The notes under the pieces are model-generated. The model ran no database searches, was not told the DNA's origin, and saw only the letters and a program-made list of their open reading frames with translations. A DNA stretch of 64,000 nucleotides from Cupriavidus agavae (GTDB lineage Bacteria > Pseudomonadota > Gammaproteobacteria > Burkholderiales > Burkholderiaceae): NCBI RefSeq assembly GCF_004217045.1, contig NZ_SGXM01000001.1, forward strand, positions 1,550,001-1,614,000. Direction: 5' to 3'. The position numbers and the translations under genes are program-made. Numbering within the stretch: position 1 is the first letter of the stretch; every line of letters begins with the position of its first letter. Shown here piece by piece: positions 1 through 18,545 of the stretch.

Positions 1-1358
1 CCCCCCAGCGCCTGATACAACATCATCCGCACCCGTAGCCGGTTCAGCCGGTTGCGTTCCACCGCCGCCTGCGCCGTGCGCAGCGCCTGCCGGTCCTCCA
101 GCCAGAACCGGATGGTCTGCTTGCCGGCCCGATAGCGGGCCGCGCCAGCCTTTTCCGCCGCCTGCGCCGCCCGGCGGGCATCGAGCAGTGGCGCCGCTTC
201 GCGCAGCAGGCTTTCGCGCTGGCCCAGCGCTTCGCTGACCTCGGCGAACGCCTGATACAGCGTCTTGCGATACAGCACGACCGATTCCTCGTACTCCGTG
301 CGCGAGATTCCCACGTTCAGCCGCACCGTATTCCACTGCAGGAACGGCAGCGCCAGGCCCGCCCCGAGCGTGCCGATCGGGTTGGTCAGCACGTGGCCGA
401 GATCGCGGTGCGCGGTGCCGACCGTGCCGGTCAGCGACAGCGTCGGAAAAAATCCGGCCTTGCTGGCATCGTGCGCCGCCAGGCTGGCACGGATGCGCGC
501 CTGCGCGGCGGCCACGTCGGGCCGGGCCTGCAGCACGCTGGCGGGCAGGCCGGGCCGGACGTCCGGCTCGGGCCCGTCGGGCAGGACAAACCCGGCGATC
601 TCGTCGAGCGGCACGGCTTCGTCGAGCAGCGTCGTCAGCGTCCTGCGCTGCGCTTCGCGCTGCTGCAGCAACTGCTCGTAGGCGGCCTCGTTTCCGGCCA
701 TCGCACGGCGGGCCAGCGCCAGTTCGGCCATCCCGTCCGCGCCGGCCCGGTAGCGTGCCGCCACGAGCGCCTCGATGCGGCGGGCGTCGCGGATATCGGC
801 CTGCGCATCGGCAAGCCGGGCGTTCAGCTCGGCAATCGTCCAGTACGTCGACGCCGTGGCGCCGATCAGCGACAGCCGCGCGCTGTCCAGGTCGAAACGC
901 GACGCTTCCGACGCCCAGGCCGCCGCATCGCGGGTCCGCGCCAGCTTGCCCCACAGGTCCAGTTCGTAGCCAAGCTGGAAGGTCAGGCCGTACTCGCGCT
1001 GGCTCGGATTGTCGTGCCGCAGCGCCTTGCTGACCGATGACTGGCCGCCCAGGCTGGCGTCGGGCGTCAGGTTGGTGTCCGCCAGTCCCGCCTGCATGCG
1101 CGCCCGTTCGAGCCGGATGGCGGCAAGCGCCAGATCGGCATTGCGCGCGAGCGCCCGGTCGATCAGGCTGTCCAGCCGCGCGTCGCCGAACGCCTGCCAC
1201 CAGTGGTCGGCTTCGCCCTCGCTGGCCGCGCTGCCGCCGCGTGCCTCCCAGGCGTCCGGGAGTTCGACCTCCGGTGCCCGATACGGGGTTTCGAGCAGCG
1301 CGCCGCAGCCGGCCAGACTGGCGAGCGCGGCGGCGAGCAGGCAGTTTCGGATCGTCAT
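1..1358 (-). CDS. Outer-membrane efflux lipoprotein, NodT/TolC family (C-terminus beyond window)
   Basis: This is the outer-membrane channel of a tripartite efflux or secretion pump. The N-terminus is a lipoprotein signal (MTIRNCLLAAALASLAGCG) with lipobox LAGC, so Cys18 is the likely acylated residue. It is followed by PYRAPEVELPDAW, typical of the NodT/OprM/CusC branch. The two long helical repeats of the family follow, with ARPDVAAAQARIRA in the second half. The ATG at 1356-1358 lies 5 nt after the stop of the MacB-like gene, so it is the last visible gene of the peptide-export operon. About 452 codons are present and the C-terminus is off the window edge. Most likely it is the exit duct for the MacA-type adaptor upstream. 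Which inner-membrane transporter it docks with cannot be seen. Confidence 0.9.
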   Translation of the reverse strand, partial: MTIRNCLLAAALASLAGCGALLETPYRAPEVELPDAWEARGGSAASEGEADHWWQAFGDARLDSLIDRALARNADLALAAIRLERARMQAGLADTNLTPDASLGGQSSVSKALRHDNPSQREYGLTFQLGYELDLWGKLARTRDAAAWASEASRFDLDSARLSLIGATASTYWTIAELNARLADAQADIRDARRIEALVAARYRAGADGMAELALARRAMAGNEAAYEQLLQQREAQRRTLTTLLDEAVPLDEIAGFVLPDGPEPDVRPGLPASVLQARPDVAAAQARIRASLAAHDASKAGFFPTLSLTGTVGTAHRDLGHVLTNPIGTLGAGLALPFLQWNTVRLNVGISRTEYEESVVLYRKTLYQAFAEVSEALGQRESLLREAAPLLDARRAAQAAEKAGAARYRAGKQTIRFWLEDRQALRTAQAAVERNRLNRLRVRMMLYQALG

Positions 1359-1363
1359 CGTCG

Positions 1364-3323
1364 TCACCCTCGCGCCAGCGCCGCCACCGGATCGAGCTTC
1401 GACGCATTGCGCGCCGGCACGAAGCCGAAGCCGATGCCCGTGGCAGCGGCGGTCGCGCAGGCGCCCAGCACGGCCAGCGGCGAGAGGTACATGGCAATGG
1501 CGTCCTGCAGCCAGCCGAACACGATCCCGATGGCCCACGCCATGACCACGCCGAGCACCCCGCCCACCAGGCAGATCAGCACCGCCTCGATCAGGAACTG
1601 CTGGCGGATATCCGATGGCCGGGCGCCCACGGCCATGCGGATGCCGATCTCCCGGGTGCGCTCGCTGACCGACACCAGCATGATGTTCATCACGCCGACC
1701 CCGCCCACCACCAGCGACACCACGGCAATGGCCGACACCATCAGCGTCAGCGCATTGGCGGTGCCCTCGATACTGCGGATGAAGCTGTCGTTGGTCGTGA
1801 CGAAGAAGTCCTTGCGGCCATGGCGCCTGGCCAGCAGCCGCTCCACGTCGGCCACCTGCCACGCCCCGCCGCCCGGCTTGAGCCGGAGCTTGATGCCCTG
1901 GAAGTAGTCCTGCGGCGCCAGCCGCGACATGTGCGTGGTGTAAGGCAGCCAGATCCAGAGCGTATCGTCGCCATCCAGTAGCGACTTGCGCGAAACCGCC
2001 ACGCCCACGATGCGCAGCGGCACCTGCCCCACCAGCACGATCTCGCCCAGCGGGTCGCCGTGAGCACCGAACAGCCGCGTCCTGAGGTTCTCGTCGATCA
2101 CGGCCACCTGGGCGCGCCGCGCCACATCGTCCGCGGAGAACCACGTGCCCGCCGCCAGCCGGGTATTGCTGGCCCGCGCATAGGCGTGGCCGACGCCCAG
2201 CGTCGAGACGTCGAGCCGGCGGTTGCCGCGCCGCAGGGCAGGCGTTCCGTAGGTCACCGGGCTGAGGCTGTCGACGTACGGCTGGGCGGCCAGCACCGGC
2301 AGGTCGGCCTCGCGCAGCGACTGCAGCGCGCGAGGGTCTTCGCCGCCGCGCTCGGCCCCCGGGTAGATGTCCATGGTGTGCGAGCCCATCGCATGGAAAT
2401 CCGCCACCACCCGGCGCTTGGCGCCCTCGCCCAGCCCCACCACGGCGATCACCGAGGCAATTCCGATCACGATCCCGAGCATCGTCAGCAAGGCGCGCAT
2501 CCGGTGCGTGAGCATGGCGTGCCAGGCCGTGCCCAGGCCGGCACGCAGCGTGGCAAACGGAAGCGCCCGGCGCGCGCCGCCAGCGGCCGGCGGCTCCGGC
2601 AGCCTGGCCGGCTGGCTGGTCCGGGCCGACGGGCACGCGCCGGTACGCCGGTCGGCAACGATGGCGCCATCCTGGATCTCGATGATGCGGTCGGCACTGG
2701 CCGCCACCTCGGGATCATGCGTGACGATGACGATCGTATGGCCCTCGCGGTGCAGCGCCCGCAGTTGCGCGAGCACGTCATGATGGCTGGCCCGGTCGAG
2801 CGCACCGGTCGGCTCGTCGGCCAGGATCACGGCCCCGCCGTTCATCAGCGCCCGGGCGATGCTCACGCGCTGCTGCTGCCCGCCCGAGAGCTGCGCGGGC
2901 CGGTAGTCGAGCCGGTGGCCCATGCCGAGCCGCTCCAGCAGCGCGCGCGCCCGCTGGTCGCGTGCGGCACGCTCCATTCCCGCGTAGAGCGCCGGCATGC
3001 CGGCATTGTCGAGCGCGCTCAGGTGCGGCAACAGGTCATAGCGCTGGAAGATGAAGCCGAAGTATTCGCGGCGCAGCGCCGCCAGCGCGTCGGGGCCGAG
3101 CAGGCTGGCATCCTGCCCGGCGATGCGGTACGCCCCGGCACTCGGCCGGTCGAGGCAGCCGAGGATATTGAGCAGCGTCGACTTGCCCGACCCGGAGCGG
3201 CCGATGATGGCCACCCTCTCCCGCGTCGATGCGCAGGTCGATGCCCGACAGCACCGTGGAGGTTTCCCGGCCGTTCCGGTACACGCGCGACACGCCACGC
3301 AGTTCGAGCAGCGGGCCGGTCAT
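1364..3323 (-). pseudogene. macB: MacB-type ABC transporter (ATPase plus permease), frameshifted near the N-terminus
   Basis: MacB proteins couple ATP hydrolysis to expulsion of peptides or lipopeptides from the periplasm through MacA and TolC. The ATG at 3323 overlaps the macA-like stop (ATGA) and codes MTGPLLELRGVSRVYRNG up to IDAGE, where the frame breaks at about 3220-3223. The other frame then gives [16 protein letters not shown] (Walker A), the signature [15 protein letters not shown], Walker [12 protein letters not shown], and a FtsX/MacB permease with four membrane segments ending VPARNASKLDPVAALARG. The frames are offset as by loss of 2 nt or gain of 1 nt, and no slippery run is present. 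The downstream frame has only a GTG without a clear ribosome site at 3298. It may be a real inactivating mutation or a sequencing error; everything else is intact and under normal codon use. Confidence 0.85.
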
Positions 3324-4483
3324 GGCTGGCCTCCGTCGTCCGGGGACCGGGCGCCCACCACCACGCGCTCGCCCTCCGCCAGCCCGCCCAGCACCTGCAC
3401 CGAGACGTGGTCGCTGACCCCGGTCTCGATCTGCCGGGATTCCACCCCCGCACCGTTGCCGCCGGACAGCACATCCACGCTGTACCGCCCTGCCCGATCC
3501 GGGCCGCGTACCGCCGCGGCCGGCACCACCAGCGCCTGGCTGGCCCGGCCGAGCACGATCGACACCTGCGCCGTCATCGACGGCCTGAGGATGCCGTCTT
3601 CGTTCGCCACTTCCAGCAGCCCGTTGTAATAGACCGCACCGGCCGCGCCCGACTGCCCCGGCATACCGTCCTGCGACGCCTGCTCGACCGGCGGCGCCGG
3701 TTCCACGCTCTTGAGCCGCGCGTGGAACTTCCGCTGCGCGGCGCCGAGGATCGTGAACCACGCCTCCTGCCCCGCCCGCACGCGCACCACATCGGCCTCC
3801 GAGATGCGCGCCTTGACCAGCATCTGGTCGAGTTCCGCCAGCACCAGGATCGTGGGCGCCGCCTGTGCCGACACCACGGTCTGGCCCTCCTGCGTCACGA
3901 TGGCGATCACCTGCCCGTCCATCGGCGCCGAGATGCGCGTATAGGCCAGGTTGGCGCGCGCCGTCTCCACCGCCGCCCGGCCCTGCCTGAGCTGCGCGTC
4001 GAGCGCGGCAATGTTGGCGCGCGTGGTATCGGCCTGGCTTTGCGCCAGTTCGAGATCGGCCACGGCGTTGGCATCGTCGGCGCGCAGTGCCTGCTCGCGC
4101 CGCAGCGCCAGTTCGTGCTGCCGCCGCAGCGCCACCTGCGCGGCGCGCTGCGCCTTGAGGTTCTGCAAGGCGGCTTCGGCCTGCAACAGCTCGTTCTGCT
4201 GCAGGATGGGATCGATCTCGGCCAGCAACTGGCCCTTGACCACGCGCTCGCCCAGCGCCACCTTCAGCGACTTCAACTGGCCGCTGACCTGGGCGCCGAC
4301 ACTGACCTGCCGGACCGGCGTCAGCGTGCCCGAGGCCAGCACCGCCTCCTCGATGTCGGCGCGCGCCACCGGCACGGTATCGAATTCGGCAGGCGCCGGC
4401 TGCAGCAGCCACCCGCCGCCGGCCGCCAGCAGGCCAGCGGCCCCCAGCGCCGCCAGCCATCGCGCATGACGCAACCCGCTCAT
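3320..4483 (-). CDS. macA: MacA-type periplasmic adaptor (membrane-fusion protein)
   Basis: Periplasmic adaptor joining an inner-membrane ABC transporter to a TolC-type channel. The 387 residues begin with a single N-terminal membrane anchor (LAALGAAGLLAAGGGWLL). A lipoyl/barrel-sandwich half follows (LTPVRQVSVGAQVSGQLKSL), then a long alpha-hairpin rich in Ala, Gln, Leu and Arg (about residues 95-180), the second lipoyl half (ARANLAYTRISAPMDGQV) and a beta-barrel and membrane-proximal domain. Domain order and length match MacA. The start overlaps the C39 exporter stop (ATGA) and its own stop overlaps the MacB ATG, so all are translated from one message. It could serve the MacB-like protein, the C39 exporter, or both; the sequence does not decide. 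Confidence 0.92.
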   Translation of the reverse strand: MSGLRHARWLAALGAAGLLAAGGGWLLQPAPAEFDTVPVARADIEEAVLASGTLTPVRQVSVGAQVSGQLKSLKVALGERVVKGQLLAEIDPILQQNELLQAEAALQNLKAQRAAQVALRRQHELALRREQALRADDANAVADLELAQSQADTTRANIAALDAQLRQGRAAVETARANLAYTRISAPMDGQVIAIVTQEGQTVVSAQAAPTILVLAELDQMLVKARISEADVVRVRAGQEAWFTILGAAQRKFHARLKSVEPAPPVEQASQDGMPGQSGAAGAVYYNGLLEVANEDGILRPSMTAQVSIVLGRASQALVVPAAAVRGPDRAGRYSVDVLSGGNGAGVESRQIETGVSDHVSVQVLGGLAEGERVVVGARSPDDGGQP

Positions 4484-6573
4484 GAGGTGGCTCCGTCCCC
4501 GGCGGGGACCACGCGCACCAGCACGCCGTCCGCCAGTTCATAGACGGTATCGAACATCGGCAGGTACGTCCGGTCATGGGTCACGACCACCGCCGCCTGG
4601 CGCCCCGCCGTGATCGCCGCCATCACCTGGCGGGCGCTTTCGCCATCGAGATTGGCCGTGGGTTCGTCGAACAGGCCGATGCTGCGCCGCGCGTACAGTG
4701 CCCGCGCCACCATCAGCCGTTGCCGCTCGCCGGAAGACAGCGACGCCGTGGCCTCGCTGACGACCGTGTCGATGCCGGCCGGCAGCGCGCCAATGCGCTC
4801 CCCGAGCCCGACGTCATCGATCAGCCGCAGCGCCGCCAGCCGGTCGGGCCGCGCCGCGAACATCGTCACGTTGTCGAGCACCGAGCCGCCGAACAGGATA
4901 TCGGCCGAGGTCTGCAGGTACATATGGCGGCGCAGCGCCGGCCACGGCGCCTCGGCCCCGTCGATCCACAGCACGCCGTCATCGGGCAGGTCGAGGCCGG
5001 ACAGCAGCGTCAGCAAAGTGGATTTACCGGCACCCGAAGCACCAAGCAGCGCGATCTTCTCGCCGGGCCGGATGCCGAGTTCGATCTCTGAGAGCGCCAC
5101 CGGGCTGCTCTCGTGCTGGAACACCAGATGCTCGACCCGGATCGCGTCGTGCCACGGTGCCGGGTCAGGCAGGTCCGCGTCGCGCTCCTGCTCGAAGAGG
5201 TCGCGCGCCCGTTCGTTCGCCACATGGTTGGAACGCGCCGCCAGCCAGGCGCCGTAACCGGCCGTGGCCGCGCCAAAGGCGATCTGCCGCAGGAACACGA
5301 ACGCGTAGAAGGCACCGAACGATAGCTGGCCGGCCAGCATGGCCGACGCGGCCACCCCCAGCATGACCAGCAACTCGATATTGCCGAGCAGCATGTAGCT
5401 GGTTTCCTGCCGTATCAGCAGGTTGGCCTTGCGCCGCCAGGTGTCGGTGATGCGCAGGCCATGGTCGCCGTAGTCCGCGGCCCGGCGGTGCGTGGCGAGC
5501 GCCGATTTCCAGGCCGTGATGCCGAGCACGGTTTCCAGCAGGAACTGCTGCTGGTCCGCCGCCGCCTGCTCCGATTCCAGCCTCAGGCCCTGCTCCTCGC
5601 CCTTGAAGCGCTGCGTCAGCAGGCCCGACACGGCGATGCCCGACACGCTGACCACCGCCAGCCACGGCTGCAGCCAGGCCATCGCCGCAATCGCCACGAC
5701 CGACACCACGACCGAACACAGCATCGTGTTGGAGAGCCTGACGCGGTCGAGCGCCGCGAAGCCATAGGCGGTAAAGCGCTCGACGATCTCGCCCGGAAAG
5801 CGCCGCGAGAAGTAGCGCAGCCGGTTCTCCACCAGCAGGCCGAACCCGTTGTCGAGCGCCCGCATGCCCGTCATGGCGCAGCGCAGGTACATCAGCCGGG
5901 CGGCCAGGCGCATGAAGAAGAACGCCGCCACCGTGGCCAGCAGGAAGGCCACCCCGATGCGCAGGTAGGCCGCCATGCCGTCAGCCCCGAGCATGCGGTC
6001 CACGGCTGGCCCGACAAACAGCGGCGTCACGAACGACAGCAACGACACCAGCAGCGTCAGGCCAATCAGCCCGGTACCGCCGGCACGGTCGACCAGCGAA
6101 GCCAGCGCATGGGACCGGGGTGCGGCATGCGGGTGCGGGTGCACCGATTCGTCAAGGATCAGCGCGTAGCCCGAGGCGGAGGCGGCAAGCACGCCAGCGG
6201 GCAGCATCTGCTCGCCCATCGCCGGATCGTAGACCTGGAACAGGTCGCCGCCAGCCCGCATCACCAGCACGAAATGATTGCCGCCGACGTGGAGAATGGC
6301 CGGCAACGGCAGTTCCGCCAGCGCACCACGCCCGAACCGGACCGGATCGGACGCAATGCCGTAGCCGGCCAGCACTTCGGACAGGTCGGCCAGTGACATG
6401 CCGAGCTGCGGCGCGCCGTAGCGGGCTCGCAGTTCCGCCAGATCGGCGGGAATGCCAAGGGAACCGAGCAGCATGGCCAGGCAGGCCAGCCCGCATTCGG
6501 ACGTCTCGCCCTGGTAGACCGGCTCGATATCGTGCAGGCCCCGCAGGGTATGGGGAAAGATCGTCTGGAGCAT
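4480..6573 (-). CDS. Peptidase-containing ABC exporter (C39 double-glycine leader peptidase, PCAT/CvaB-like)
   Basis: A bacteriocin-type exporter that removes double-glycine leaders and pumps the peptide across the inner membrane. The N-terminal C39 peptidase is complete: Gln21 and catalytic Cys27 in QGETSECGLAC, His100 in HVGGNHFVLV and Asp116 in VYDPAMG. A six-helix ABC membrane domain spans about residues 160-440. The nucleotide-binding domain has Walker A GASGAGKST (511-519), signature LSSGERQ (about 612-618) and Walker B LFDEP (about 634-638). The 697-residue length is normal for the family. Start and acyltransferase stop overlap as TAATG. The nearby 56-residue peptide with LSPQQAMAVVGG is its obvious substrate. 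Family assignment is secure; the substrate is inferred from the context. Confidence 0.95.
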   Translation of the reverse strand: MLQTIFPHTLRGLHDIEPVYQGETSECGLACLAMLLGSLGIPADLAELRARYGAPQLGMSLADLSEVLAGYGIASDPVRFGRGALAELPLPAILHVGGNHFVLVMRAGGDLFQVYDPAMGEQMLPAGVLAASASGYALILDESVHPHPHAAPRSHALASLVDRAGGTGLIGLTLLVSLLSFVTPLFVGPAVDRMLGADGMAAYLRIGVAFLLATVAAFFFMRLAARLMYLRCAMTGMRALDNGFGLLVENRLRYFSRRFPGEIVERFTAYGFAALDRVRLSNTMLCSVVVSVVAIAAMAWLQPWLAVVSVSGIAVSGLLTQRFKGEEQGLRLESEQAAADQQQFLLETVLGITAWKSALATHRRAADYGDHGLRITDTWRRKANLLIRQETSYMLLGNIELLVMLGVAASAMLAGQLSFGAFYAFVFLRQIAFGAATAGYGAWLAARSNHVANERARDLFEQERDADLPDPAPWHDAIRVEHLVFQHESSPVALSEIELGIRPGEKIALLGASGAGKSTLLTLLSGLDLPDDGVLWIDGAEAPWPALRRHMYLQTSADILFGGSVLDNVTMFAARPDRLAALRLIDDVGLGERIGALPAGIDTVVSEATASLSSGERQRLMVARALYARRSIGLFDEPTANLDGESARQVMAAITAGRQAAVVVTHDRTYLPMFDTVYELADGVLVRVVPAGDGATS

Positions 6574-7517
6574 TACTGGCCCCCGTCATTGAAATAGAAC
6601 AGCGACGGAAAATGCCAGAGCAGCCATTGGTCGCCATGCTCCCGCAGGGCCTGCTCAAGACAGCGTGCGACGTCGTTGCCATCCACACAAGGAGGAAAAA
6701 CGCGGATCGCAAGCCGTCCGCCCTCCCAGAACACATAAAAGGGAATCAACCGGCCGCCCACCAGCCGGGCCAGCTCCCCGGCGCCGCCATGCAGCCGGGC
6801 CGGACGGCCGAACAGCGTCACCGGATGCGTGCGCATGGCTCGCCCCAGATGGGCCTCGGTGAATTGCGGCAGGATGTCCGGAAAAATGGCGAGATTGGCG
6901 TGGTTTGCACGCATCTCGCGCAACATGGCCCGGCGCGCGGCGGCCGGCTCGTCCGGGTGATGCTGGATCATCACCGCATCGCGCCGCGCAAAGGCGGCGG
7001 CCTCGTCGGCGCCGTAGTGCCCGGCCGCGTAAATGGAAATGGTGTGGGTGCGCCGGGGCGGCACCAGGGAAATGACCGCTACGGCCAGCGCGTCGGAGCA
7101 GACATGGAGCGGCGCGAAAACCGGCGTGAAACCCTGCGCGACCATGTTTTCGCGCGCCATCGCCAGTTCGGCGGCGCAGGCTTCGAGCATGCCCACCAGC
7201 CCGGACTCGGTGTGGTACATCGCCGATTCCAGCACGAGGCGGCGGCGCACCAGCGCGGCATAGCCCTGGCGCGGCGCCACGCCAAGCAGTTTGCGCTGGT
7301 TCTCCCGCCAGGTCCGGGCGCGCGCCCGGTCGCGGGCCGCCTCCCGGCCAATCCGCCAGGGCAGCCGGGCCAGCGACGCCGCCAGCCGGACAGGCATGCA
7401 GGACCAGAACGCCGCACCAAGGGCCGCGCTCAGGCGAGCCGCCAGCCGGCTGCGGGCGCGTGCGAGCGCGGCCGCGATACCCGCCCTGCCGAGCGAAATG
7501 GCAATGGATAGCTGCAT
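6573..7517 (-). CDS. LpxL/HtrB-like acyltransferase (LPLAT family) in peptide-export operon
   Basis: A 314-residue protein of the lysophospholipid/lipid A acyltransferase type, which moves a fatty acyl chain from a thioester donor to an acceptor at the inner membrane. An Arg/Ala-rich N-terminal helix (residues 1-60) may act as a membrane anchor. The second half follows LpxL closely: LFGRPARLHGGAGELARLVGGRLIPFYVFW, then LAIRVFPP and the terminal WLLWHFPSLFYFN. The catalytic HX4D/E of LpxL is not evident. The best equivalent is His138-VCS-Asp142 (HX3D), so the active site may be altered. Its position between a double-glycine peptide and the leader peptidase exporter suggests a peptide acceptor instead of lipid A. 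That is inference; a lipid-modifying self-protection role is an alternative. Confidence 0.75.
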   Translation of the reverse strand: MQLSIAISLGRAGIAAALARARSRLAARLSAALGAAFWSCMPVRLAASLARLPWRIGREAARDRARARTWRENQRKLLGVAPRQGYAALVRRRLVLESAMYHTESGLVGMLEACAAELAMARENMVAQGFTPVFAPLHVCSDALAVAVISLVPPRRTHTISIYAAGHYGADEAAAFARRDAVMIQHHPDEPAAARRAMLREMRANHANLAIFPDILPQFTEAHLGRAMRTHPVTLFGRPARLHGGAGELARLVGGRLIPFYVFWEGGRLAIRVFPPCVDGNDVARCLEQALREHGDQWLLWHFPSLFYFNDGGQ

Positions 7518-7568
7518 GATGAGGACCTGCGAATGGGAGGAGAAACCAGAAAGCCGTTGCCAGGAGAA

Positions 7569-7589
7569 ACGGCCGGAATATCCGGCCGT
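7569..7589 (-). terminator. Hairpin between peptide gene and export genes (possible attenuator)
   Basis: A perfect 9-bp GC-rich stem (ACGGCCGGA with TCCGGCCGT) around a 3-nt loop lies between the peptide stop and the acyltransferase start. On the minus strand it is followed by TTTCTCC, a short and imperfect U tract. That would let part of transcription pass, giving more peptide mRNA than exporter mRNA, as is common in bacteriocin operons. The structure is seen; the function is inferred. Confidence 0.55.
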
Positions 7590-7654
7590 CCTTCGTGAGT
7601 ATTCCTTCCGACGGGAATAATCACGGGTAAAACACCAATCTCGAGAACCGACGA

Positions 7655-7825
7655 TTATTTACCAGGGGTATTGGCGTACCACTGGCCGGTCTTCGAGTCC
7701 TTCTTGCATTGGGCATAACGGCTGCGGCAGCCTTCGAACGTCTTGAACATCTGACGTTTTCCGCCAACCACCGCCATGGCCTGCTGCGGACTGAGCTTCT
7801 GAATCCTGGCTTGGGTGTCTGACAT
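7655..7825 (-). CDS. Small cationic peptide precursor with double-glycine leader (putative bacteriocin/microcin-like)
   Basis: A 56-residue precursor starting at the ATG at 7825; an in-frame TTG at 7840 would add five residues. The leader MSDTQARIQK plus LSPQQAMAVVGG fits the double-glycine consensus LSxxELxxIxGG at -12 Leu, -11 Ser, -4 Val, -2 and -1 Gly. Cleavage would release a 34-residue core beginning KRQMFK and ending TPGK. The core has six Lys, three Arg, one Glu and one Asp (net about +7) and two cysteines spaced CX6C (GCRSRYAQCKK) that could form one disulfide. No known bacteriocin was recognised by eye. It is the first gene of the operon with the C39 exporter. A signalling peptide is another possibility. 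No immunity gene was identified. Confidence 0.8.
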   Translation of the reverse strand: MSDTQARIQKLSPQQAMAVVGGKRQMFKTFEGCRSRYAQCKKDSKTGQWYANTPGK

Positions 7826-7935
7826 TTTCTTCGAGTGCAAAATCGCGCCTGTTTATCTGATGGGTACCGGCTTGCGGCGCATGCAAGACCGCCCCATCGT
7901 CCGGAGCCCGTTGGAAAACACTCCGGATAACCGGA

Positions 7936-8031: not shown

Positions 8032-8724
8032 CTACGCCAGATATTCGCGCCCGTTGAAAGTCAACACCCAGTGCGGACGAAACACGACGAATATCGCCAC
8101 CAACATGCCGGTCAGGAACGCGTCGCCAAAGGCCATGATGACGACCCCGGTCAGCCGGTCCGCCACACTCAGTCCGGCCCCGCCGGGCGCCGAGGTCTGC
8201 ACCAGCCACGCCACGCGCAGGCCGCCTGCCACCATGGACGCCAGCAGCGCCGCGAAATAGCCATGCCCGAGGATGAAGACGAACAGGTGCCGGGGCAGGC
8301 GGCGGCGCAGCACCGCCTGCAGCGCCGCCGTGACGAGCGCGGGCACCGCCGCCATCCAGATGAAGCGCGGCGCCAGCGCCACCCAGCCGATGTCCGGCCA
8401 CGCCTGCCCTGACAAGTAGGCCAGGCCGAGCAGCGAGACCACATTGGCCAGCGCCAGCGAGATCAGCGCCAGCGGCAGGCCGAACATCGTCACGGCCAGC
8501 GTGGCGCCGGTCAACTGGATCACCACGTCGTGGCCCACCGTGGCCCGCGCGGACCACAGCAGCGTCAGCAAGACCAGCGATCCCAGCCACGCATGCTGGA
8601 TCGGCTCGCGCTGCAGCACTTGCCACGGCCGTTGCATCACTGCCCAGAGCAGCACGCCCACCGCCAGCGTGGGCAGCGGCCAGACCGCCAGGAACTCCAG
8701 AATTGAAGATTTTTCGATGTGCAT
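8032..8724 (-). CDS. CbiM-like energy-coupling-factor permease / integral membrane protein
   Basis: A 230-residue protein made almost entirely of hydrophobic helices. It starts MHIEKSS, recalling the MHI start of CbiM/NikM cobalt and nickel transport components, whose His2 binds metal. The core segment QLTGATLAVTMFGLPLALISLALA resembles the CbiM pattern H-L-x-G-x-x-L-A-x-L-L-G-P, but the usual His is Gln here. The C-terminal GDAFLTGMLVAIFVVFRP also fits the family. No ATPase or CbiN/CbiQ partner lies beside it, so it may act alone or with remote partners. It is divergent from folD. The family call is moderate and the metal is unknown. Confidence 0.6.
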   Translation of the reverse strand: MHIEKSSILEFLAVWPLPTLAVGVLLWAVMQRPWQVLQREPIQHAWLGSLVLLTLLWSARATVGHDVVIQLTGATLAVTMFGLPLALISLALANVVSLLGLAYLSGQAWPDIGWVALAPRFIWMAAVPALVTAALQAVLRRRLPRHLFVFILGHGYFAALLASMVAGGLRVAWLVQTSAPGGAGLSVADRLTGVVIMAFGDAFLTGMLVAIFVVFRPHWVLTFNGREYLA

Positions 8725-8879: not shown

Positions 8880-9737
8880 ATGTCCGCACAACTGATCGAC
8901 GGTAACGCCCTCGCCAAACATATCCGTGCCGAAGCCGCCCAGCGCGCCGCCCGCCTGACCGCCGCCGGCCACCAGCCCGGCCTGGCCGTGGTGCTCGTGG
9001 GCGAAGACCCGGCCAGCCAGGTCTATGTGCGCAACAAGGTCAAGGCCTGCGAGGACAACGGCTTTCATTCGTCGCTGGACCGCTACCCGGCCGACCTTTC
9101 CGAAGCCGACCTGCTGGCCCGCATCGACGCGCTGAACCAGGACCCGAAGATCCACGGCATCCTGGTGCAATTGCCGCTGCCGAAGCACATCGACAGCCAC
9201 AAGGTGCTCGAAGCCATCGCCCCCGGGAAGGACGTCGACGGCTTCCACGTGGCCAACGCGGGCGCGCTGATGACCGGCGCCCCGCTGTTCCGCCCGTGCA
9301 CGCCGTATGGCTGCATGAAGATGCTGGAGTCGGTGCAGTTCCCGCTGCGCGGCGCGCGTGCCGTGGTGGTGGGCGCGTCGAACATCGTCGGCAAGCCGAT
9401 GGCGATGATGCTGCTGCAGGCCGGCGCCACCGTCACCATCTGCAACAGCAAGACGCGCGACCTGGCCGCCCATACCCGTGACGCCGACGTGATCGTGGCC
9501 GCGGTGGGCCGCCGCAACATCATCACGGCCGACATGGTCAAGCCCGGCGCCGCCGTGATCGACGTGGGCATGAACCGCGACGATGCCGGCAAGCTGTGCG
9601 GCGACGTGGACTTTGCCGGCGTGCGCGAGGTGGCCGGCTACATCACCCCGGTGCCGGGCGGCGTGGGTCCGATGACGATCACGATGCTGCTGGTCAACAC
9701 GCTGGAATCGGCCGAGCGCGTGGCCGGGCTGGGCTGA
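8880..9737 (+). CDS. folD: FolD, methylenetetrahydrofolate dehydrogenase/cyclohydrolase
   Basis: Cytoplasmic bifunctional enzyme that oxidises 5,10-methylene-THF with NADP and hydrolyses the methenyl product to 10-formyl-THF, feeding purine and fMet-tRNA synthesis. The 285 residues match the usual family length. Visible motifs are the catalytic-Lys region [17 protein letters not shown], the substrate segment [10 protein letters not shown], the nucleotide-binding [18 protein letters not shown] and the signature [15 protein letters not shown] near the C-terminus. The start ATG follows a divergent intergenic region with a TATAAT. It stands alone, with prlC following after about 140 nt. Confidence 0.97.
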
Positions 9738-15804: not shown

Positions 15805-15880
15805 GGGGCGTTAGCTCAGTTGGTAGAGCAGCGGACTCTTAATCCGTAGGTCGAGTGTTCGAGTCACTCACGCCCCACCA
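15805..15880 (+). tRNA. tRNA-Lys (anticodon CUU), copy 1
   Basis: A 76-nt tRNA including encoded CCA. The acceptor GGGGCGT pairs with ACGCCCC, the D arm is TTAGCTCAGTTGGTAGAGC, the anticodon loop CTCTTAA gives CUU (reads AAG), and the T arm contains GTTCGAGTC. It is identical to the copy at 18470-18545. Confidence 0.97.
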
Positions 15881-18469: not shown

Positions 18470-18545
18470 GGGGCGTTAGCTCAGTTGGTAGAGCAGCGGA
18501 CTCTTAATCCGTAGGTCGAGTGTTCGAGTCACTCACGCCCCACCA
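18470..18545 (+). tRNA. tRNA-Lys (anticodon CUU), copy 2
   Basis: The same 76-nt sequence as 15805-15880, including CCA, with anticodon loop CTCTTAA. Flanking DNA differs beyond the tRNA apart from the -10 box, so only the gene and its immediate promoter are shared. Confidence 0.97.

Follow-up and report, generated by a model that had tools for sequence, protein, structure and literature searches.

Analysis of a 64,000-nt stretch of the Cupriavidus agavae genome (the window, meaning this whole stretch) showed that a run of six minus-strand genes fills positions 1-7825. These genes form a cassette of about 8 kb in the order double-glycine (GG)-leader peptide, acyltransferase, C39 peptidase-containing ABC exporter (C39 exporter), MacA, MacB and outer-membrane factor (OMF). 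The cassette probably makes and secretes a fatty-acylated ribosomal peptide, by lysine-directed acylation, cleavage and export by the C39 exporter, and expulsion by MacAB and the OMF. The six genes and two neighbours are as follows (window positions; aa, amino acids).

7655..7825, minus strand: GG-leader precursor peptide gene, ATG start, 56 aa, with a 22-aa leader ending AVVGG and a 34-aa core with two Cys
6573..7517, minus strand: acyltransferase of the LpxM/PatA fold (LPLAT-like), 314 aa
4480..6573, minus strand: C39 peptidase-containing ABC exporter, 697 aa, with Q21, C27, H100, D116 and Walker A K517
3320..4483, minus strand: MacA-like periplasmic adaptor, 387 aa, NCBIfam MacA model 3e-94
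1364..3322, minus strand: MacB-like ABC transporter gene, frameshifted near 3216-3220, NCBIfam MacB model 6.6e-227 (open piece only)
1..1358, minus strand: outer-membrane factor, OEP family, Pfam OEP 2e-30, last codons just past the window start
8032..8724, minus strand: small membrane protein, 230 aa, a neighbour outside the cassette that also adjoins folD at 10/12 empty-site loci
8880..9737, plus strand: folD, the insertion-site flank, from the flank comparison

An earlier note on this DNA had proposed these six minus-strand genes in this order, with four junctions that overlap or lie within 5 nt. All six were confirmed by reading of the open reading frames (ORFs) and by family models, and direct reading of the junctions gave TAATG between the acyltransferase and C39 exporter genes, ATGA between the C39 exporter and MacA and again between MacA and MacB, and 5 nt between MacB and the OMF. 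About 137 nt separate the end of the peptide gene from the start of the acyltransferase gene, so the peptide gene is not translationally coupled to it. The 34-residue core proposed to follow the GG leader was borne out by the ORF, while the extent of the operon had to be corrected: the peptide gene occupies 7655-7825, and the OMF gene runs a few bases beyond the window, its ORF being complete in a locus read from the same genome (L088, 14995-16368).

In the proposed mechanism, the precursor peptide would be made in the cytoplasm and the LpxM/PatA-fold enzyme, with acyl-ACP (ACP, acyl carrier protein) or acyl-CoA as donor, would acylate the core peptide, a lysine side chain being the likeliest site. 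Cleavage after GG and passage of the lipopeptide across the inner membrane would fall to the C39 exporter. The MacA-MacB-OMF pump would collect the lipopeptide in the periplasm, or at the outer face of the inner membrane, and expel it from the cell. In a second form of the cassette (the HlyD form), an HlyD-type adaptor and TolC would perform the last step together with the C39 exporter.

An acyltransferase profile built from six members was searched against 398 family genomes and 398 phylum genomes, the five best candidates per genome being scored. Matches were found in 50/398 family genomes and 6/398 phylum genomes, two being common to both. Forty-six loci were opened, from 42 family genomes (one locus each; G481 has two) and 4 others, with 8 matching family genomes left out. 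The results showed that 45 of the 46 loci contain a C39 exporter gene (the exception is L077), damaged in three of the 45 (L012, L049 and L085), and that all 46 contain a GG-leader ORF. In the reverse search, using a C39 profile built from cassette members with two candidates scored per genome, 50 C39 places of at least 650 bits were found in the 398 family genomes and 48 of these adjoin an acyltransferase match; the other two are in G565 and, as a fragment, in G546, and the next C39 place scores 520 bits. Because of how the profile was built and how many candidates were scored, it is this gap in score that matters, not the exact C39 count. Distances between acyltransferases and between C39 exporters were closely correlated over 43 loci (Mantel r 0.97, 0/999 permutations as high), for which shared ancestry alone could suffice. 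The acyltransferase gene stands last in five loci (L012, L067, L072, L073 and L083).

The opened loci carry MacA-MacB-OMF in seven cases (four in Cupriavidus, and L084-L086) and an HlyD-type adaptor in 39/46, two of the latter being damaged (L012 and L077). The co-occurrence that the earlier note had put forward for checking was found: the acyltransferase, C39 exporter and GG peptide occur together, and MacA, MacB and the OMF accompany them in the Cupriavidus and enterobacterial forms. Likewise, its idea of a peptide that is acylated, cut, moved to the periplasm and expelled by MacAB and the OMF is partly supported, by the architecture and logic of the cassette, by the gene linkage and by the acyl-supply genes and lysine position described below, whereas the MacAB stage is not universal.

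Leader-type ORFs, one to four per locus, were found upstream in 46/46 loci and on the reverse strand in 0/46, with 0.01 expected from block shuffles; as the leader pattern was drawn from the same peptides, this control shows specificity only. Two other leader patterns were less productive, one finding 4/7 of the MacAB-form peptides sought and few others, and a narrower one reaching 24/46 loci. By virtue of a leader ending in GG beside a C39 exporter, the peptides of the window and of 46/46 loci belong to the GG-leader class (class II microcin type). The leader of the window peptide is common to L009, L010 and L011, where the cores differ, and the MacAB-form leader in Cupriavidus reads I(Q/R)K(L/M)xxxQAxxVxGG. 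Loci of the HlyD form encode as many as four short peptides each, often rich in Ser/Thr, and a 17-residue leader was found in 60/60 of these peptides. Lysine occupies core position 3 in 57/60 and falls within core positions 1-4 in 60/60, its frequency from core position 5 on being 5.4%. In 600 random pairs of HlyD-form peptides, mean identity was 64% for leaders and 33% for cores.

In the MacAB form, (D/N/S)-K-x-G was found in 7/9 cores; L010 and L011 are without it, their sole K-x-G being the last three residues. K-x-G was tried as the common acceptor motif of this form and rejected as too weak, since 6-68% of shuffled MacAB-form cores would contain some K-x-G by chance. Both the L010 and the L011 core terminate in an NTTxVNVYV stretch, to which five of the 60 HlyD-form peptides, chosen by eye, bear a resemblance. 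The L084 and L086 peptides match DUF4762 (PF15959) and that of L085 falls below the cut-off; the window peptide gave no Pfam match to this family. As a separate observation, several HlyD-form cassettes have upstream of them a conserved small protein that begins with a signal-like stretch and ends NGCNLQCPKDE (L013, 7772-8197; likewise L048, L052 and L054).

Loci L084-L086 come from one family outside Burkholderiales. They appear to belong to Enterobacterales, clearly so for two of the three, because the L084 flank matches E. coli gloB-yafS-rnhA-dnaQ (78%) and the L085 flank acrAB (73%); the L086 flank gave only a 10% match, to fimbrial chaperone genes. Further enterobacterial matches were located on plasmids, with 10 records from Escherichia, 2 from Salmonella and 1 each from Chimaeribacter and Serratia. 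The acyltransferase was found in 9/5,426 complete E. coli genomes at megablast sensitivity, in all cases on plasmids, and 5/9 of the annotations read LpxL/LpxP family acyltransferase. Seven enterobacterial loci were read (L084, L085, L086, two E. coli plasmids, Chimaeribacter and Serratia). The results showed that ketosynthase (KAS), MaoC-like, ACP and SDR reductase genes are present in 7/7 and a DsbA-like gene in 4/7, with GG-leader ORFs in 2/4 of the plasmid loci. The KAS, MaoC-like, ACP and SDR genes probably form a module for acyl-ACP supply, and the DsbA-like protein may oxidize the peptide cysteines.

Equating the E. coli operon with the etsABC genes of ColV plasmids was considered and dropped, because the available passages of the pAPEC-1 paper contain no mention of an acyltransferase, C39 or acyl carrier (0 each) and because the acyltransferase is confined to 9 of the E. 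coli genomes; the two are set apart tentatively, by description and not by sequence comparison. On E. coli plasmid p1 (L098, 18870-23661), polysaccharide deacetylase, glycosyltransferase and CptA genes and an lpxM pseudogene lie past the cassette end.

The best solved fold matches of the acyltransferase were the lipid A acyltransferase LpxM and mycobacterial PatA, placing it in the LpxM/PatA fold, and H138, S141, F212, D214, P217, A240, H243 and G245 are identical in 46/46 loci. No Pfam family was matched at E 0.1, PF03279 (LpxL/LpxM) included; the NCBIfam LpxL model gave 19.9 bits against a cut-off of 540, and a profile search of Protein Data Bank sequences gave no match. The exporter contains Peptidase_C39 (7.5e-22) and ABC_tran (6.6e-22) domains by Pfam, which makes it a C39 ABC exporter, with ABC_membrane just below the cut-off (27.8 of 28 bits). 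Its active-site Q, C and H are kept in 42/43 loci and D in 40/43, the count taking 43 of the 46 loci and excluding L049 (frame break), L085 (in-frame stop) and L077 (no C39).

Several findings weigh against an acylated, exported peptide. Both solved fold relatives of the acyltransferase act on lipids, judging by the structure titles. HX4(D/E) is the catalytic pair of LpxL-type acyltransferases, and its acid is absent in 46/46 loci, the His being invariant with no D/E at +5 (the residue at +4 is Q in 38, D in 7 and E in 1). The MacAB form has no universal lysine position, and the 43 loci outside the enterobacterial group are without the acyl-supply module, four of them holding a lone distant match (KAS in L057 and L061; SDR in L079 and L080). 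Two genomes with the acyltransferase are without a 650-bit C39 place, namely G564, where a broken piece adjoins, and G596, with none at 1e-100. No immunity gene was recognized. Finally, MacB is frameshifted in the C. agavae genome, and the MacB step is therefore in doubt in this strain.

Some of these points would fit an alternative in which the acyltransferase acts on a lipid (lipid A or phospholipid) for self-protection against an unmodified peptide, whose export and clearance would be the work of the C39 exporter and MacAB. The lipid-acting fold relatives are in its favour, as are the lack of a visible immunity gene and, for one E. coli plasmid, the location of cptA and an lpxM pseudogene 3-5 kb beyond the cassette. 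However, PF03279 is not matched and the HX4(D/E) acid is not kept, four other places in the C. agavae genome already code for PF03279 acyltransferases, and the ACP, ketosynthase and reductase genes of 7/7 enterobacterial loci and the core position 3 lysine of 57/60 HlyD-form peptides also speak against it; we consider lipid acylation unlikely. As far as sequence can tell, acylation of the peptide appears to be favoured over that of lipid A, owing to the enterobacterial KAS, ACP and reductase genes and the near-invariant HlyD-form lysine.

The MacB_PCD, FtsX and ABC domains, the MacA-like adaptor and the OMF all scored over Pfam cut-offs, as in a MacAB-TolC-type pump, albeit with MacB frameshifted; the NCBIfam equivalog cut-offs for MacA and MacB were missed (316 of 342 bits and 755 of 966 bits). 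The frameshift, already reported in the earlier note, is borne out by the sequence. The L009 MacB matches the window in two frames, one for residues 1-36 and the other for residues 36-647, with the change near 3216-3220. In the six other opened MacAB-form loci (L009, L010, L011, L084, L085 and L086) the MacB ORFs are full length (639-649 aa), indicating that the frameshift in the window is either an assembly error or a lesion. As an observation of its own, the MacA of L011 (13215-15188) is extended at its C terminus by about 270 residues, which form short repeats with abundant M, R, A, E and D.

Export might also proceed in one step, with MacA and the OMF serving the C39 exporter directly, in the way expected of HlyD and TolC in the HlyD form, and MacB acting as a side pump or in immunity efflux. 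This would agree with the HlyD-type adaptor found with the same C39 family in 39/46 loci and with a C. agavae cassette in which MacB is broken and the other five genes are open. It agrees less well with an adaptor that is MacA-like, not HlyD-like, and with a full-length MacB in six of the six other MacAB-form loci, and we judge it improbable compared with export in two stages.

It is also conceivable that the frameshift is not an assembly error and that it leaves the cassette inactive in the C. agavae strain, a possibility that we take seriously without preferring it. Besides the frame change itself, damaged copies elsewhere (L012, L049, L085 and G565) point in this direction, whereas the open state of the other five genes and the draft nature of the genome (19 contigs) point away from it. 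In L012 (G312:C27) the C39 ORF (6504-8612) is without a peptidase domain and its N-terminal part matches the adaptor start, as in a probable deletion fusion; the C39 gene shows a frame break in L049 and an in-frame stop in L085. L077 (G565:C4) retains the acyltransferase and an adaptor fragment but no C39 exporter gene at the locus; the same contig holds a C39 relative at a distance of about 710 kb, apparently because the cassette was split by a rearrangement.

Within Cupriavidus, close acyltransferase relatives (48-54% identity) were found in 3 other genomes out of 60, together with one distant match; the relatives of the cassette include those of C. pauculus CCUG 12507 and C. pampae LMG 32289 (L010, an intact carrier). 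The earlier note had named a gene order unique to one genome as fatal to its proposal, and this is excluded: the same set occupies the same place in three other Cupriavidus genomes and recurs in the wider family. All four carriers have the cassette between folD (or the adjoining small membrane gene) and a FixJ-type regulator gene, and in 12/12 cassette-free relatives, hand-picked from the 55 genus genomes without an acyltransferase match, these neighbours are contiguous. Between the window and the other carriers, identity is 48-72% for the cassette proteins and 93-98% for folD, the regulator and the adjoining kinase. The shared flanks in carriers, the contiguous flanks in non-carriers and the lower identity of the cassette mark it as an accessory element inserted at one fixed site. 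The small membrane gene by folD is also only 58-75% identical where found, even without any cassette, and the 230-aa membrane protein (8032-8724) was rejected as an immunity protein because its gene adjoins folD in 10/12 cassette-free genomes.

The role of the product may be other than antibacterial, and a lipopeptide signal, surface coat or surfactant is a tentative alternative. The number and Ser/Thr-rich character of the HlyD-form peptides would suit such a role, as would the Aat system, which displays a lipoprotein on the cell surface (PMC7943197, consulted in part, as were all the papers cited here). Competition would fit, although it is not proven by, the patchy occurrence (5/60 genus genomes, one a distant form), the plasmid carriage and the fast divergence at a fixed site, in which the small membrane gene shares.

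The class II microcin gene set is not known to include an acyltransferase or MacAB. In other respects class II microcins (colicin V type) resemble the cassette, having a GG leader, a C39 exporter, an adaptor and TolC (for C39 exporters, PMC8277102). The Aat system (AatPABCD), which acylates and exports CexE/Aap in E. coli, likewise combines a dedicated acyltransferase with a MacAB-related pump, an adaptor and a TolC-like channel and exports its acylated substrate in a second step; in contrast, AatD is an Lnt-like (C-N hydrolase) periplasmic enzyme, and its substrate of about 12 kDa enters by Sec and is acylated on an N-terminal Gly (PMC7943197). With its LpxM/PatA fold, GG leader and C39 exporter, the cassette falls outside this system. 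Selidamides and nostolysamides share a ribosomal precursor, a Gly-Gly site, a peptidase-containing exporter and an acyl group on a Lys/Orn side chain, but they use a GNAT maturase, accompanied by a lanthionine synthetase in the described cases (PMC13060382); the LpxM/PatA fold of the candidate maturase sets the cassette apart from the selidamides. In pyoverdine synthesis an acylated peptide (ferribactin) most likely reaches the periplasm via PvdE and the product leaves via PvdRT-OpmQ, but the peptide is non-ribosomal, its acyl chain is removed in the periplasm, there is no C39 cut and PvdRT-OpmQ is not the sole exit (PMC6206403). Aat (PMC7943197) and PvdE with PvdRT-OpmQ (PMC6206403) thus provide partial precedents for a relay of two transporters. 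In addition, the reported cargoes of such pumps include enterotoxin II, secreted from the periplasm by MacAB-TolC, and a cyclic lipopeptide, secreted by a pump of the MacB family (PMC8277102).

Lipidated ribosomal peptides are already known, acylated by GNAT enzymes (PMC13060382) or, for Aat substrates, by an Lnt-like enzyme (PMC7943197). What would be new is an acyltransferase that shares the fold of LpxM and PatA, is linked to a peptide exporter, has no Pfam match and does not keep the HX4(D/E) acid, together with a two-ABC relay in one form, if the chemistry is as we infer. No description of the cassette was found among the papers listed by a full-text literature search aimed at the system, subscription papers being mostly outside its coverage. 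On balance, if narrowly, we favour a widespread class of ribosomal lipopeptides in Pseudomonadota, in which LpxM/PatA-fold enzymes would acylate lysine, an acyl-ACP module would take part in Enterobacterales, and the product would leave by HlyD/TolC or MacAB/OMF, the MacAB form being a two-ABC relay. If this is true, a peptide-dedicated acyltransferase of another fold would open a lipopeptide class for genome mining with a simple pair of genes, and would provide a natural cargo for a set of MacAB-like pumps. The related cassettes, some of which lie on plasmids of E. coli, point to a family of peptide products, and the enterobacterial operons with ACP and ketosynthase genes make the acylation hypothesis directly testable.

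Elsewhere in the window, two tRNA-Lys(ctt) genes (15805-15880 and 18470-18545) lie about 2.6 kb apart on the same strand.

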